A stretch of 64,000 nt of DNA from Nodularia spumigena CCY9414 (GTDB taxonomy: Bacteria > Cyanobacteriota > Cyanobacteriia > Cyanobacteriales > Nostocaceae), in NCBI RefSeq assembly GCF_000340565.2, contig NZ_CP007203.1, positions 536,297 to 600,296 of the forward strand, given 5' to 3'. The notes beneath the pieces were generated by a model. That model was not told the origin of the DNA, did no database searches, and was given only the letters and a program-made list of their open reading frames with translations. This document shows positions 13,916 through 45,210 of the stretch, piece after piece (within the stretch, counting starts at the first letter, position 1; the number at the start of each line of letters is the position of its first letter). The position numbers and the translations under genes were made by a program.

Positions 13916-14024
13916 GGCGAACGCGGCTATACAAACTAAGTTCGCCTGCGCGGACTAAGAAGCAAATCAAGGTATTTAACCCGCGCAGGCGGGTTTTGCC
14001 TGTATAGCCGCGACTTCAGTCGCC
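13916..14024. repeat. Palindromic dispersed element
   Basis: Nested inverted repeats: GGCGA/TCGCC at the ends, then a perfect 12-bp CGCGGCTATACA (13922-13933)/TGTATAGCCGCG (14001-14012), then an 11-bp CGCCTGCGCGG/CCGCGCAGGCG. It would fold into a long hairpin and resembles the small palindromic repeats common in Nostoc genomes. It occupies most of the gap before aspS. Confidence 0.75.
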
Positions 14025-37308: not shown

Positions 37309-39060
37309 ATGGCAGAATCTCGAAGACTTGCTAAACTCGGTGCTTATTTACGTCCCCATTGGCGGGAAACGACATTAGGCATTCTCGCTTTATTATCGGT
37401 CAATGGGCTGGGTGTTTATATCCCCTGGTTGATTCGTTCAGCCGTTGACCAACTTTCGGCTAGCTTTAATTTCAACAACATATTATATTACGTAGTGCCG
37501 ATTATCTTGCTCAGTTCCGCGATGTGGCTCATCCGTATGGCTTCGCGTATCTGGCTGTTTGGGGTAGGAAGACAGGTAGAATTTGACCTGAAACAACGAA
37601 TTTTTGAACACTTACTCAAGCTGGAACCTGCTTATTTTGCTACTAACACGGCTGGAGATTTAATTAATCGGGCTACCAGTGATGTGGAAAATGTCAAGAG
37701 GTTGGTGGGTTTTGCGGTACTGAGTTTGGCAAATACTCTGTTTGCCTATGCTCTGACCCTACCAGTAATGTTAACAATTAGTGTAAATCTCACATTAGCT
37801 TCCTTGGCGGTTTATCCTTTCATGTTCTGGTTAGTGCATCTGTTTAGCAGTCGTCTCCGCAAACAGCAAGCTGTAGTCCAAGAGGAACTATCAGACATCA
37901 GTGAACTGATTCAAGAGGATGTGAGCGGTATTGCATTAATTAAAATCTACGCCCAAGAAGAAAATGAGCGTCGAGCTTTTGCTCAAAAGAATGACCAGCT
38001 ATTGGCGGCTAACCTACAACTGGCTAAAAGTCGAAATATTCTGTTTCCTTTAATCGGTGGTCTAGCTAATCTCAGTTCTCTGGTAATTATCTGGCTGGGG
38101 GCTACACAAATATCTACTGGAACCCTAGCTGTAGGTGACTTTTTGGCGCTGCTGATTTATGTAGAACGTTTAGTTTTCCCCACAGCTTTATTAGGTTTCA
38201 CAATTACAGCTTATCAACGTGGTGAAGTGAGTGTTGATCGTCTGGAGTCTATTCTTTCTGTAACACCAAAAATTCAAGACGAAGCGGATACTATACATTT
38301 GCCTTTAGCTGATATTCAAGGAAAACTCACAGCCGAAAATCTCAGCTACACTTACCCTGGTGCGACTACTCCGGCTTTAGAAAATATCAATTTTACTATT
38401 TTTCCTGGGGAAACAGTCTCGATTGTCGGGGCTATTGGTTCTGGTAAATCAACTTTGGCCAATGCTTTACCGCGTTTGTTAGATATTGCACCAGGGCAAT
38501 TGTTTGTGGATGGTATGGATATTACTAAGATATCATTGGCAGATTTACGTCAGGCGATCGCCTACGTTCCTCAAGATAGCTTTTTGTTTAGCACCACAAT
38601 TAAAAATAATATCCGTTATGCTGACCCAGTTAGTGAAGCTCAAGATGTAGAGTTTGCTGCCAAACTAGCCCAAATTGATGCCGAAATTAGCAATTTTCCG
38701 CATCAATATGAAACCATTGTTGGCGAACGCGGTATAACTCTTTCTGGTGGTCAGCGACAACGTACAGCCTTAGCTAGGGCGATGTTGGTAGAAGCTCCAA
38801 TATTAATTTTAGATGATGCCCTTTCCAGCGTGGATAATCAAACTGCTACACAAATTCTCAATAATCTTGCCAGTGATTCGACACGCAAAACCATAATTTT
38901 TATCACTCATCAGCTATCGGCGGCGGCGACGGCTGACCGCATTTTTGTCATGGAGCAGGGTAAAATTGTGCAGATAGGCAAACACTCAGAATTATTACAA
39001 ACAGAGGGTCTTTACAAAACTTTGTGGAGTCAGCATCAAGTAGAAGAGTTACTGCGTTGA
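37309..39060 (+). CDS. ABC exporter, fused membrane and ATPase domains
   Basis: 583 residues, an MsbA/MdlB-type half-transporter. Six membrane helices span about 15-300. The nucleotide-binding domain has Walker A GAIGSGKST, Q-loop YVPQDSFLF, signature LSGGQRQRTALARA, Walker B ILILDDALSSVD and the switch His in FITHQLS. The Walker B continuation is DDALS rather than DEALS/DEPTS; in exporters this Asp substitution at the catalytic Glu occurs in one half of asymmetric heterodimers, so a partner is likely but not adjacent. Substrate unknown (lipid or drug-like). Confidence 0.9.
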   Translation: MAESRRLAKLGAYLRPHWRETTLGILALLSVNGLGVYIPWLIRSAVDQLSASFNFNNILYYVVPIILLSSAMWLIRMASRIWLFGVGRQVEFDLKQRIFEHLLKLEPAYFATNTAGDLINRATSDVENVKRLVGFAVLSLANTLFAYALTLPVMLTISVNLTLASLAVYPFMFWLVHLFSSRLRKQQAVVQEELSDISELIQEDVSGIALIKIYAQEENERRAFAQKNDQLLAANLQLAKSRNILFPLIGGLANLSSLVIIWLGATQISTGTLAVGDFLALLIYVERLVFPTALLGFTITAYQRGEVSVDRLESILSVTPKIQDEADTIHLPLADIQGKLTAENLSYTYPGATTPALENINFTIFPGETVSIVGAIGSGKSTLANALPRLLDIAPGQLFVDGMDITKISLADLRQAIAYVPQDSFLFSTTIKNNIRYADPVSEAQDVEFAAKLAQIDAEISNFPHQYETIVGERGITLSGGQRQRTALARAMLVEAPILILDDALSSVDNQTATQILNNLASDSTRKTIIFITHQLSAAATADRIFVMEQGKIVQIGKHSELLQTEGLYKTLWSQHQVEELLR

Positions 39061-39114
39061 CCGAAAATAATGGGATACAAGCCCCGTCACTTCGGCAAGC
39101 TCAGTACAAGCCTT

Positions 39115-39255
39115 CTAGGACGGCTTTTTATTTGTTTTCAGTTTTCTAATCAAATCTCTAAGTACATCAGATTTCGTTCTCTGAGTCACCTTGCAGTAAC
39201 TTTCGAGATGCGCCAATTCTTCCTCGGTTAATCGAAAAAATACACTTTTGTTCAT
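39115..39255 (-). CDS. Ribbon-helix-helix (CopG-type) regulator, 46 aa
   Basis: ATG at 39255, 46 codons. The sequence MNKSVFFRLTEEELAHLESY then KVTQRTKSDVLRDLIRKLK fits a ribbon-helix-helix DNA-binding protein: a beta strand, helix A with EEELAHLESYC, and helix B with KSDVLRDLIRKL. Small RHH genes of this type accompany tnpB in cyanobacterial IS200/IS605 elements. The start codon abuts the 13-bp palindrome at 39255-39287, a probable autoregulatory operator, and the gene is divergent from the tnpB remnant. Confidence 0.75.
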   Translation of the reverse strand: MNKSVFFRLTEEELAHLESYCKVTQRTKSDVLRDLIRKLKTNKKPS

Positions 39256-39287
39256 ACTATTGTATATTCATATGATATACAATAGTA
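39255..39287. promoter_or_regulatory. Palindromic operator between RHH gene and tnpB
   Basis: Perfect 13-bp arms TACTATTGTATAT (39255-39267) and ATATACAATAGTA (39275-39287) around TCATATG. It overlaps the RHH start codon by one base. Likely the RHH binding site and promoter; it could also be a transposon-end hairpin. Confidence 0.55.
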
Positions 39288-39307
39288 GCAGTTTTGAAGG
39301 AAAAATA

Positions 39308-39579
39308 GTGAAAGCCAGATAAATTCAAATTGCTAAACTGCATAACCAAATTGCAGATACTCGTCAACATTTCCTACACAAACTATCAACTAAAGTAGTT
39401 AGGGACAACCAAGCAATTGTTTTGGAAGATTTGAATGTGTCAGGAATGGTCAGAAATCGTCAACTGGCAAGAGCAATTAGTTTACAGGGATGGCGAGAAT
39501 TCCGGGGATTTTGCGAGGCTAAAGCTGAAAAACTTCACCGTGATTTCAGGGTCATTAGCCGATGGGAACCCACCAGTCT
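39308..39579 (+). pseudogene. tnpB: tnpB fragment, central part (5' side of the iscB insertion)
   Basis: Reading frame 39308-39579 encodes VKAR, a stop (TAA at 39320), then IQIAKLHNQIADTRQHFLHK through AIVLEDLNVSGM to VISRWEPTS. This is the middle of an IS200/IS605 TnpB, including the RuvC-II glutamate (VLED). The N-terminal about 190 residues with the RuvC-I aspartate are missing, presumably deleted between the RHH gene and 39308. The frame runs into the iscB element and ends eight nucleotides later. Its continuation is at 41106. Nuclease-dead. Confidence 0.9.
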
Positions 39580-39615
39580 TTGCATTTAATCTCATAAAAT
39601 TGTAGTTGTCCGTAG

Positions 39616-40893
39616 TCAAACGTAGCTATACCCGTCACTACAATGAACCTTAGTAATATCTTTCATTGTTGAAAATTCAACTCTAAAACCATTGATAACA
39701 ATCTCACATCCGTTTTTTGTGGGAGTTTTAACACGACTTACATACTTTCCAGAAGTTATGTTTTTACGATCTTTGTGCAAAGTAGCCTTAACAAAATCTC
39801 CTGTAGAAACATGAGTGAATATTTTTTTAGGCTCAGTGCAAGGAAAACCAAATTTATTGATCCTACAGAATCTTCTGCAACTATGCCCCGTGCTTTTTAC
39901 TGTTAAAATTTTTGTTGTCAGTATTTTGAGAGTTTCAACTTTTCCTACACAAGCAGCATCAATCCAATGAGTTTTAGGCAATCCTAAACGAGTTCTATTA
40001 AACTTAGTTAAACCTCCTGAACCTGTTGTTATAGGTAATCCAGTTTCTTTTAACTTATTAAATAAAGCCCATCTCGTTGAATTTACAGCAGACGCATCTT
40101 TTAGTGGACGCTTGGCTTGGGATAAAATTTGCTTCAACAACTCAGGCTTTTTTGCTAAAAACTTCTCAATATCTTGAGTACCTTTTTTGATATTGCATTT
40201 CTCACAAGCTAGACACAAATTAGAAATTCTATTAGTTCCTCCTTTGGCTTTTGGTTTAATATGCTCAACTTGTAAAGGGACATTTTCCGCAGTACAGTAT
40301 GCACATTTTCTATTCCATTTATTCAAAAGATATTCACGGACTTCATACCCTTGTAACTCTCCCTGTTGATACTCAAAGCCTGATATCTCCGGGTTTTCTA
40401 GCTGCTGTAGGTCAAACCTAGCAAGCTCTTGAACTATGTCAGTTATTGGGGCAAAATTACATAATCTTTTAACCCAAGTGTTAATAGTTAAAACTCTATG
40501 GCTTAAAGAAGGTGCTAACCAACCTTGAGGTTTAGTGCGGTTAAGAAATCTAGCTTGACGATAACGAGTATGTCTAGAACGTCTTCCTCGCCTTACTCCT
40601 TTTCGAGTTTCTAGGCTTTCTTTAATAGCTAAACCTCTGTGTTGTAATTCCATACCCCAGATGACTTTATTATTTTGAACTAACGCAAAACCTGTAGTTT
40701 TACTCCCTGGATCTATTTTTAATTCAATCGGTTGAGTTGGAACTTCAGATTTAGGTTCTTTCAAAATTATGGTAAATGGAAATCTTCTAAATACAGCAGC
40801 TTTTTGTTGATTTAATAAAAAACGTGCATCTCCTGGATGAATTGGAGTAAGTGGTTTTTTGTTGGTATCAAGAACTAGAACAAAATTAGACAT
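39616..40893 (-). CDS. iscB: IscB RNA-guided nuclease (RuvC plus HNH)
   Basis: 425 residues, within the IscB range. In order: an N-terminal PLMP-type domain (here KKPLTPIHPGDARFLL, residues 12-27), RuvC-I KIDPGSKTTG with Asp61, an Arg-rich bridge helix RKGVRRGRRSRHTRYRQAR (97-115), RuvC-II VQELARF with Glu156, HNH with CAYC (197-200), VEHIKPKAKGG with His211, SNL with Asn225 and ACEKC (229-233), RuvC-III THWIDAACVG with His309 and Asp312, and an about 110-residue C-terminal target-interaction region. All expected catalytic and zinc residues are present, so it looks active. AAGGTG lies 8 nt before the ATG. IscB proteins nick both strands of DNA matched by an omegaRNA guide. Confidence 0.93.
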   Translation of the reverse strand: MSNFVLVLDTNKKPLTPIHPGDARFLLNQQKAAVFRRFPFTIILKEPKSEVPTQPIELKIDPGSKTTGFALVQNNKVIWGMELQHRGLAIKESLETRKGVRRGRRSRHTRYRQARFLNRTKPQGWLAPSLSHRVLTINTWVKRLCNFAPITDIVQELARFDLQQLENPEISGFEYQQGELQGYEVREYLLNKWNRKCAYCTAENVPLQVEHIKPKAKGGTNRISNLCLACEKCNIKKGTQDIEKFLAKKPELLKQILSQAKRPLKDASAVNSTRWALFNKLKETGLPITTGSGGLTKFNRTRLGLPKTHWIDAACVGKVETLKILTTKILTVKSTGHSCRRFCRINKFGFPCTEPKKIFTHVSTGDFVKATLHKDRKNITSGKYVSRVKTPTKNGCEIVINGFRVEFSTMKDITKVHCSDGYSYV

Positions 40894-41105
40894 TTAAATT
40901 TCACCTTTTCAGGGTAATGTTTGCTTCAACCTTGTTATCTGAGCTTGTTATGCTAAATACACTATCCTTGCGGATTGTTTAATAAGTAGCAACATGGCAG
41001 GGGACTAGCGAATCCCAAGGTGTTATGACCTAGATAACGTTTACTCATGTTTTGAGTAGTTTGGTTCACATAAACTACAGATTACTCCGTTTATTTATGC
41101 TCTCT
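40894..41105 (-). ncRNA. Predicted IscB omegaRNA scaffold
   Basis: The 212 nt between the element end and the iscB start, same strand, is the position where IscB omegaRNAs are encoded. It has no ORF but several stems: GGGATT-CGCT-AGTCCC (41001-41016), TACTCA-tgttt-TGAGTA (41042-41058) and GTAGTTT/AAACTAC (41056-41078, overlapping the previous one, so alternative folds). In this family the guide is the sequence immediately 5' of the scaffold, i.e. flanking DNA read from about 41121 down to 41106 (ACAACAAGAACAAGTC), which is tnpB coding sequence. Confidence 0.7.
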
Positions 41106-41355
41106 GACTTGTTCTTGTTGTGGGTATAGGTGGGGTAAGGTGGATCTCTCTATCCGTTCAGTGCTGTGTTTAAATTGCAATGCTGAACACGACAGGGACG
41201 AAAATGCTTCTAAAAACATAGAAATGGTCGGCATGGGGCATCGGCACGACCTTAAATGGACGAGGAGGGACTATCAGACTACTCCGGTAGCAAGTTGCAG
41301 TGAGTCGTCAAGTGTTTCCCCGCACTTTAAGGGCGGTGAGTATGTCAACACTTAA
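41106..41355 (+). pseudogene. tnpB: tnpB fragment, C-terminal zinc finger and RuvC-III
   Basis: In frame with 39308-39579 after removal of the iscB element. It encodes TCSCCGYRWGKVDLSIRS, CLNCNAEHDRDENASKNIEM and a tail ending HFKGGEYVNT. The CxxC...CxxC zinc finger and the RuvC-III Asp (DRDENAS) are the TnpB C-terminus. The last codons overlap the right end of the outer element and the convergent surE stop codon. Confidence 0.9.
41318..41348 (+). mobile_element. Right end of the outer IS200/IS605 (tnpB) element
   Basis: CCGC-actttaagg-GCGG hairpin followed by TGAGTATGTCAA, the usual right-end/omegaRNA-scaffold signature of cyanobacterial IS605 elements, which end ...GTCAA. The element thus ends at about 41348, four bases before the surE stop codon at 41352-41354. 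The TnpB guide would have been the adjoining sequence in surE. Confidence 0.65.
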
Positions 41356-44832: not shown

Positions 44833-45210
44833 TTACATGGTATGCGGGAAACTCAGAGGCTTTAGCCCTGAGAGGGAAGCGACGCAAGCGGTTTTAACCG
44901 CAGTGGAAATTAGCCCGATATAGCGTCTAATTAGTCGGACTTTGTTTTTACTGAATTGACCTAACCGTTTCCAGTTTTGGTCAGAGACAGAAACTTGTTT
45001 TTCGGTGTCGCCACTAACCCAACCTCTATATGTTTTATTGCCTTGAGTAGCTTCGACATAATCACCAACTGAACATAAAAAATACCTAATTTGTTGAATT
45101 TACCAACTGCTTTACCTTTTTTCATCCAACGTCTAGCACGACTTGGTTTAGTTGGCATCAATGGTGTATTGTCTGGGAAAGCATAAAATAAATCCGCTAC
45201 GCGGAGTCAT
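44833..45210 (-). pseudogene. Internally deleted IscB/IsrB-like (PLMP-domain) remnant
   Basis: Read leftward from about 45210, one frame gives FPDNTPLMPTKPSRARRW and GKAVGKFNKLGIFYVQL, the PLMP N-terminal domain of RRXRR/IscB-type proteins. Near 45068 the coding frame shifts and continues GDYVEATQGNKTYRGWVSGD, then QFSKNKVRLIRRY and SLSGLKPLSFPHTM, stop at 44833, a C-terminal target-interaction-type segment. The RuvC, bridge and HNH parts are missing, so about 300 residues were deleted. It belongs to a different subgroup from the intact iscB (PLMPTKPSRARRW versus PLTPIHPGDARF). Confidence 0.65.

Follow-up and report, generated by a model that had tools for sequence, protein, structure and literature searches.

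An intact iscB element inserted in a decayed tnpB gene of Nodularia spumigena

Nodularia spumigena is a bloom-forming cyanobacterium. The window analysed here, a whole stretch of 64,000 nucleotides from strain CCY9414 (C1:536297-600296 in a genome of 5,462,271 bases), contains a complete iscB gene, whose product is related to Cas9, lying within the coding sequence of tnpB, whose product is related to Cas12, so that one RNA-guided nuclease gene interrupts another. A first-pass annotation described the arrangement as one OMEGA system inserted in another and took it as a sign that "the ancestors of Cas9 and Cas12 prey on each other's genes". The locus therefore raises the questions of where the inserted element begins and ends, and of whether tnpB is its preferred target or simply a place where it happened to land. 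We found no published case of iscB inside tnpB in the open-licence PMC literature; the instance is new, while the kinds of elements and events involved are already known.

Ends of the element and decay of its host gene

The TnpB coding sequence runs to RWEPTS and resumes in the same frame as TCSCCGYRWG, and the 1526 bp in between hold a complete minus-strand IscB ORF (Table 1), just as the first-pass annotation had read it. Removing the element restores an open tnpB frame with one Leu codon at the junction (CTG, where the congeners have CAG for Gln). The annotation was also right that both ends can be defined, but its interval, 39580-41105, is off by 1 nt from the actual 39579-41104; the joined tnpB product is identical whichever of the two is removed. 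To place the ends, the joined flanks of 10 of the 12 full-length sites in the genome (L004 and L006 excluded) were searched against four congeners. The junction was spanned by 24 alignments, at seven of the ten sites. At five of these seven loci the flanks in the empty site are separated by the triplet GTC; at L012 the triplet is CTC, and at L011, where identity is about 70%, it is ambiguous. For the tnpB site itself, seven alignments to uninterrupted tnpB span the junction (four in G002, two in G004 and one in G003), and six of them read GTC-A-GACTTG there. A natural empty site thus exists, as had been proposed; the tnpB homologues continue across the junction, with no unrelated sequence over it, and the other copies of the iscB element share the same ends. 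The T at 39579 is an element base, because L003, L009 and L012, whose guide-side flanks do not begin with T, still show GTC/T. The congeneric empty sites and the flanks of the other copies therefore fix the element at 39579-41104 and assign the GTC at 39576-39578 to the chromosome. Taking the element out leaves long ORFs over the junction, for example 168 aa at L001, 198 at L005, 143 at L011 and 99 at L012.

Table 1. Coordinates of the nested features within the window
Feature	Position	Strand	Evidence or remark
IS200/IS605-type tnpB element remnant, host of iscB	39057..41348 (ends approximate, +/- few bp)	+	Alignment to tnpB elements at unrelated congener sites
Small ORF, 46 aa, MNKSVFFRLTEEELAHLESYCKVTQRTKSDVL..., left end of tnpB element	39115..39255	-	Six-frame translation
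tnpB 5' remnant, VKAR / deletion / IQIAK...RWEPTS (RuvC-II part)	39308..39578	+	PF01385 E=5.6e-11
GTC (GAC in iscB orientation), chromosomal, at iscB-3' end	39576..39578	.	19/19 distinct flanks
iscB (ISC/HEARO-type) element	39579..41104	-	1526 bp, no target-site duplication
Imperfect subterminal hairpin near iscB-3' end, ATTGTAGT...ACTACAAT	39599..39644	.	ViennaRNA fold, terminal 80 nt
IscB, 425 aa, RRXRR/RuvC + HNH	39616..40893	-	PF14239 E=8.6e-73, PF01844 E=5.5e-11
Predicted omega-RNA scaffold region	40894..41104	-	HEARO RF02033 match 40914-41075
Subterminal hairpin near guide-side end, CATAAATAAAC...GTTTATG on minus strand	41068..41100	.	Fold, terminal 60 nt
Predicted natural guide, ~17 nt antisense to the zinc-ribbon part of tnpB, ends at element boundary	41105..41121	-	Analogy
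tnpB 3' remnant, (L)TCSCCGYRWGKVDLSIRSVLCLNCNAEHDRDENAS..., zinc ribbon + RuvC-III	41105..41355	+	PF07282 E=2.4e-05

Insertion at a fixed motif without target duplication, a trait of IS200/IS605-type mobility, was found at seven of the ten loci, one of them ambiguous. The iscB element resembles IS200/IS605 TnpA elements in this respect and in its fixed flanking motif and subterminal hairpins. Unlike them, it has no tnpA, and no Y1 transposase gene lies inside its 1526 bp. Eight Y1_Tnp places are present in the genome, five of them carried by IS605-type elements; the ends of these elements are unlike the iscB ends, and no TnpA partner with matching ends was found among them.

The host gene is part of an element remnant whose right end reads ...GTATGTCAA and which, judged by eye, has an ABC exporter gene on one side and surE on the other. 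The product of the small ORF at 39115-39255 is presumably ribbon-helix-helix-like (by eye), and the corresponding end of the tnpB element is kept in congeneric copies too. Both TnpB regions, OrfB_IS605 and zinc-ribbon/TNB, were recognised in the host gene, PF07282 scoring 24.8 bits on the 71-aa 3' piece, slightly under its cut-off of 26.3. Comparison with uninterrupted copies bore out the view that this tnpB had decayed and showed it to be broken in a second place, separately, by a deletion of about 684 bp (682-684 by alignment; about 228 codons) at about 39321, between VKAR and IQIAK. The deletion takes out the RuvC-I stretch SIGIDLGIKTF, and an in-frame stop lies at 39320-39322. The gene consequently lacks a complete set of RuvC-I, II and III, and TnpB was or became catalytically dead, the iscB insertion aside. 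Uninterrupted relatives of this tnpB lie at other sites in the congeners as ORFs of 428, 428, 423, 417, 428 and 405 aa from stop to stop (L043, L045, L047, L048, L051 and L058, in this order), the last adjoining a Y1-like ORF (by eye); a seventh, L056, is cut by N. No second close copy of this tnpB family was found in the CCY9414 genome, where the next matches have 79% identity over 57 bp or 67%.

The IscB protein and its predicted omega-RNA

Residues D61, E156, H211, H309 and D312 of IscB align, as read by eye, with the catalytic positions of solved IscBs, those of OgeuIscB serving as reference (PMC9640706). Both nuclease domains thus retain their catalytic residues, and the HEARO/omega-RNA region lies directly upstream of the ORF. 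The locus matches known HEARO/IscB OMEGA systems (RF02033, PF14239) in its RuvC and HNH protein of about 425 aa, its upstream HEARO RNA and its predicted 5' guide from the flank; in such systems tnpA is rarely adjacent as well (PMC9755519). Against the full HEARO model (RF02033, 1-211) the RNA region scored 82.1 bits (E=3e-16), just below the gathering score of 83. The copies L002, L009 and L012 scored 82.7 and relatives 80.9, 78.1 and 88.6, the last being L131. Alignment of 16 upstream regions gave 28 predicted pairs, 20 of them with compensatory changes in one or more sequences. Judged from the flanking sequences, the GAC beside the iscB-3' end is likely to serve as both TAM and insertion motif. 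A TAM of the form GAC(T)(G) would differ from that of OgeuIscB, which is NNRR (PMC9640706).

A recent burst and its landing sites

BLAST with the iscB element in its own genome returned 32 matches, 12 of them at full length including the copy in the window. The other 11 full-length copies are 99.7-99.9% identical to it and sit at other sites. The 425-aa ORF is intact in 10 of the 12, L008 and L012 being frameshifted. Distinct flanks were recovered for 19 iscB-3' (TAM-side) ends and for 18 guide-side ends. On the plus strand all 19 TAM-side flanks end in GTC and 14 of them in CAGTC (GACTG in iscB orientation), and the guide-side flanks have T as their first base in 14 of 18 cases. The TAM-side end of L021, CAGTTCT beside an N run, stands outside the 19; its flank matches that of L026. 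RRXRR places number 27 in this genome, some of them pieces of one copy, versus 1, 2, 0 and 0 in the four congeners. The element has multiplied recently in this genome, through roughly nineteen insertions of which the tnpB site is one. The CCY9414 draft was assembled from 264 contigs (PMC3610870), and 60-N gaps border many partial iscB copies, so the copy number and some flank pairings are uncertain. We considered truncated and overlapping copies as deletions and duplications but rejected this reading, since most border 60-N gaps and are better taken as assembly breaks.

Related sequences were seen in and beyond this genome. At 852-853 kb (L022/L029) an iscB element with positions 826-1395 deleted keeps both ends, contains no N and is possibly a non-coding derivative. 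Within the window, a fragment of a different, decayed IscB lies 4 kb away from the nested element, at 45009-45173 on the minus strand (RRXRR E=3.2e-08, profile 8-54), and a CRISPR repeat matches Rfam CRISPR-DR28 at 13977-14000 on the minus strand (37.4 bits, cut-off 35). Dolichospermum relatives have the same end motifs as the iscB element. The IscB of Dolichospermum sp. UHCC 0259 (L129) is 99% identical, and G031, from another genus of the same family, holds fragments that share 97-99% identity with the element and in part lie at contig ends; we read both as recent transfer between genera.

The claim that the two nuclease lineages prey on each other's genes was not upheld by the landing sites. 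Only 2 of the 19 TAM-side flanks in this genome are tnpB, and the other 17 have no TnpB match at E<=0.01; by eye, other flanks include genes for an alpha/beta hydrolase, an S-formylglutathione hydrolase, a Nudix-type protein and a pentapeptide protein as well as intergenic sites. In other genomes, 72 IscB loci, many of them with little flanking sequence, were searched with 16 TnpB proteins; five (L148, L149, L181, L182 and L192) gave a match, and a single one, L181 of Scytonema sp. NIES-4073, has it directly beside iscB. L181 was rejected as a clean nesting: a zinc-ribbon TnpB remnant lies just upstream of iscB, with no tnpB on the other side. No clean reverse nesting, a tnpB element inside iscB, was found; the sole candidate, L014, is a truncated iscB beside a multi-copy tnpB element, and was dismissed because a 60-N gap covers the junction and the tnpB element, too, is shortened there. 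A preference of IscB elements for tnpB, with the nesting selected or targeted, could nonetheless be argued from the two tnpB genes, of two families, that copies of this element split in this genome. With 45 PF07282 places of an assumed length of about 1.1 kb, about 0.17 of the 19 sites would be expected in such genes, and the probability of at least two is about 0.013. However, the first case was picked for lying in tnpB, and one or more such sites among the remaining 18 would arise with a probability of about 0.15; dispensable DNA, moreover, gathers insertions anyway. Together with the 17 of 19 flanks and the 1 of 72 loci, this makes a preference for tnpB very improbable. The most plausible view is that the tnpB site is one of the many places where insertion of the element was tolerated, and not a preferred prey. 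Insertion of one element into another is well known. In Haloquadratum walsbyi, 192 element-in-element insertions have been tabulated, and there too IS605-type elements are among the targets (PMC3119063); IscB does not occur in that paper.

The second tnpB also bears on the soundness of the assembly. At copy L009 the TAM-side flank encodes the C-terminal part (HMM 175-365) of a TnpB from another family; the N-terminal part of the same TnpB flanks L015 on its guide side, with HMM positions 103-171 in frame and 2-105 in another frame. When put together, the halves are in frame and read ...PEVEVKTGKIAGFDFG..., compared with ...PEVEIKTVKIAGFDFG... in G004. In the draft scaffold they lie 1.28 Mb apart, L009 at 755 kb and L015 at 2039 kb, either through wrong scaffold joining of repeats or through recombination between iscB copies. 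Such a separated pair, the 264-contig draft (PMC3610870) and the gaps in many iscB copies could suggest that the window's tnpB halves, too, were joined artificially through a repeated element. This is extremely unlikely, as the two flanks of 39579-41104 belong to one and the same tnpB and share its frame, both match one continuous congener sequence at once, and the locus has no N.

Predicted guide and possible homing

With a probability of roughly 85%, we consider the locus to be a non-autonomous, recently multiplied ISC/HEARO IscB element that inserted without target duplication by GAC inside a deletion-broken IS605-type tnpB, as it did at many other sites that tolerated it. The element would be excised, and inserted at (A)/GACTG-like sites, in single-stranded form by a Y1 (TnpA-like) transposase provided in trans. 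By analogy with IscB and TnpB work, the omega-RNA, once transcribed, would take its 5' guide from the DNA bordering the element, and IscB would then cut restored empty sites with a guide match and GAC, after which repair would copy the element back. The guide of this copy would equal tnpB zinc-ribbon sequence, so IscB would here cut the tnpB allele that has no insertion. Several points count against this explanation: no fitting transposase was identified, the IS605-type elements that carry five of the eight Y1_Tnp places having other ends; GACT is incompatible with the NNRR TAM of OgeuIscB; copy number and some pairings are uncertain in the gapped draft; and the TAM-side end of L021 deviates.

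Since the IscB catalytic residues are intact and a HEARO/omega-RNA lies upstream, we predict that the natural guide is tnpB zinc-ribbon sequence. Following the 5' guide position of IscB omega-RNA (PMC9640706), it would consist of the roughly 17 nt that border the element on its guide side and are antisense to tnpB CTTGTTCTTGTTGTGGG. We searched for targets with an 18-nt seed plus GAC, allowing A or T at the TAM-adjacent base. Exact matches occur in uninterrupted tnpB copies of G002 (three), G004 (two) and G003 (one), all six of which have T at guide position 1, next to the TAM, versus A in the guide. In OgeuIscB, mismatches at positions 1-14 abolished cleavage (PMC9640706), so cutting of the congeneric tnpB copies is doubtful. 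With up to three mismatches, the CCY9414 genome has no intact target beyond the interrupted site itself; with at most one, only this genome, G004 (two sites), G077 and G245 match among 291 genomes of the order (own included). For the second tnpB guide, the genome again holds only the interrupted site, and G004 has one site with three mismatches.

These targets invite a homing or gene-drive account, in which the element entered a mobile, multi-copy tnpB and its guide cuts uninterrupted copies, which are then converted or lost. Seed-plus-GAC targets do exist in G002, G004 and G003, the CCY9414 genome retains one copy only of this tnpB family and none with an intact target at up to three mismatches, and TnpB, which has been proposed to home into homologous sites at ectopic positions (PMC8612924), acts as a drive in plasmids (PMC11870625). 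As in those studies, the guide here would derive from the flank, the insertion motif would serve as TAM and the empty site would be the target; what was shown there concerns TnpB, whereas here the nuclease is IscB and the target itself would be tnpB. Nevertheless, the T against guide A at the TAM-adjacent position is shared by all six congeneric copies and by both near matches in the 291 genomes, and the search of the CCY9414 genome turned up no second copy of this tnpB that the element interrupts at this position. Congener G001 also lacks a close tnpB copy, so having one copy or none needs no drive. Homing of this kind is therefore improbable. We regard as very unlikely its fuller form, a natural anti-tnpB drive in which the element, having gained a tnpB guide within a multi-copy tnpB, converts or purges uninterrupted copies and so leaves a single interrupted one here versus one to four uninterrupted ones in some congeners.

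A recently multiplied element that landed in tnpB, the reading we favour, has uses of its own. That an IscB may naturally carry a guide against tnpB is a curiosity open to test, and one mismatch speaks against it. The exact ends, the burst, the empty sites, the inferred TAM and the natural guide make cleavage, homing and transposase-in-trans testable in one system. As two iscB copies sit in tnpB genes, guides that occur naturally could be used to set the two RNA-guided nuclease lineages against each other experimentally.
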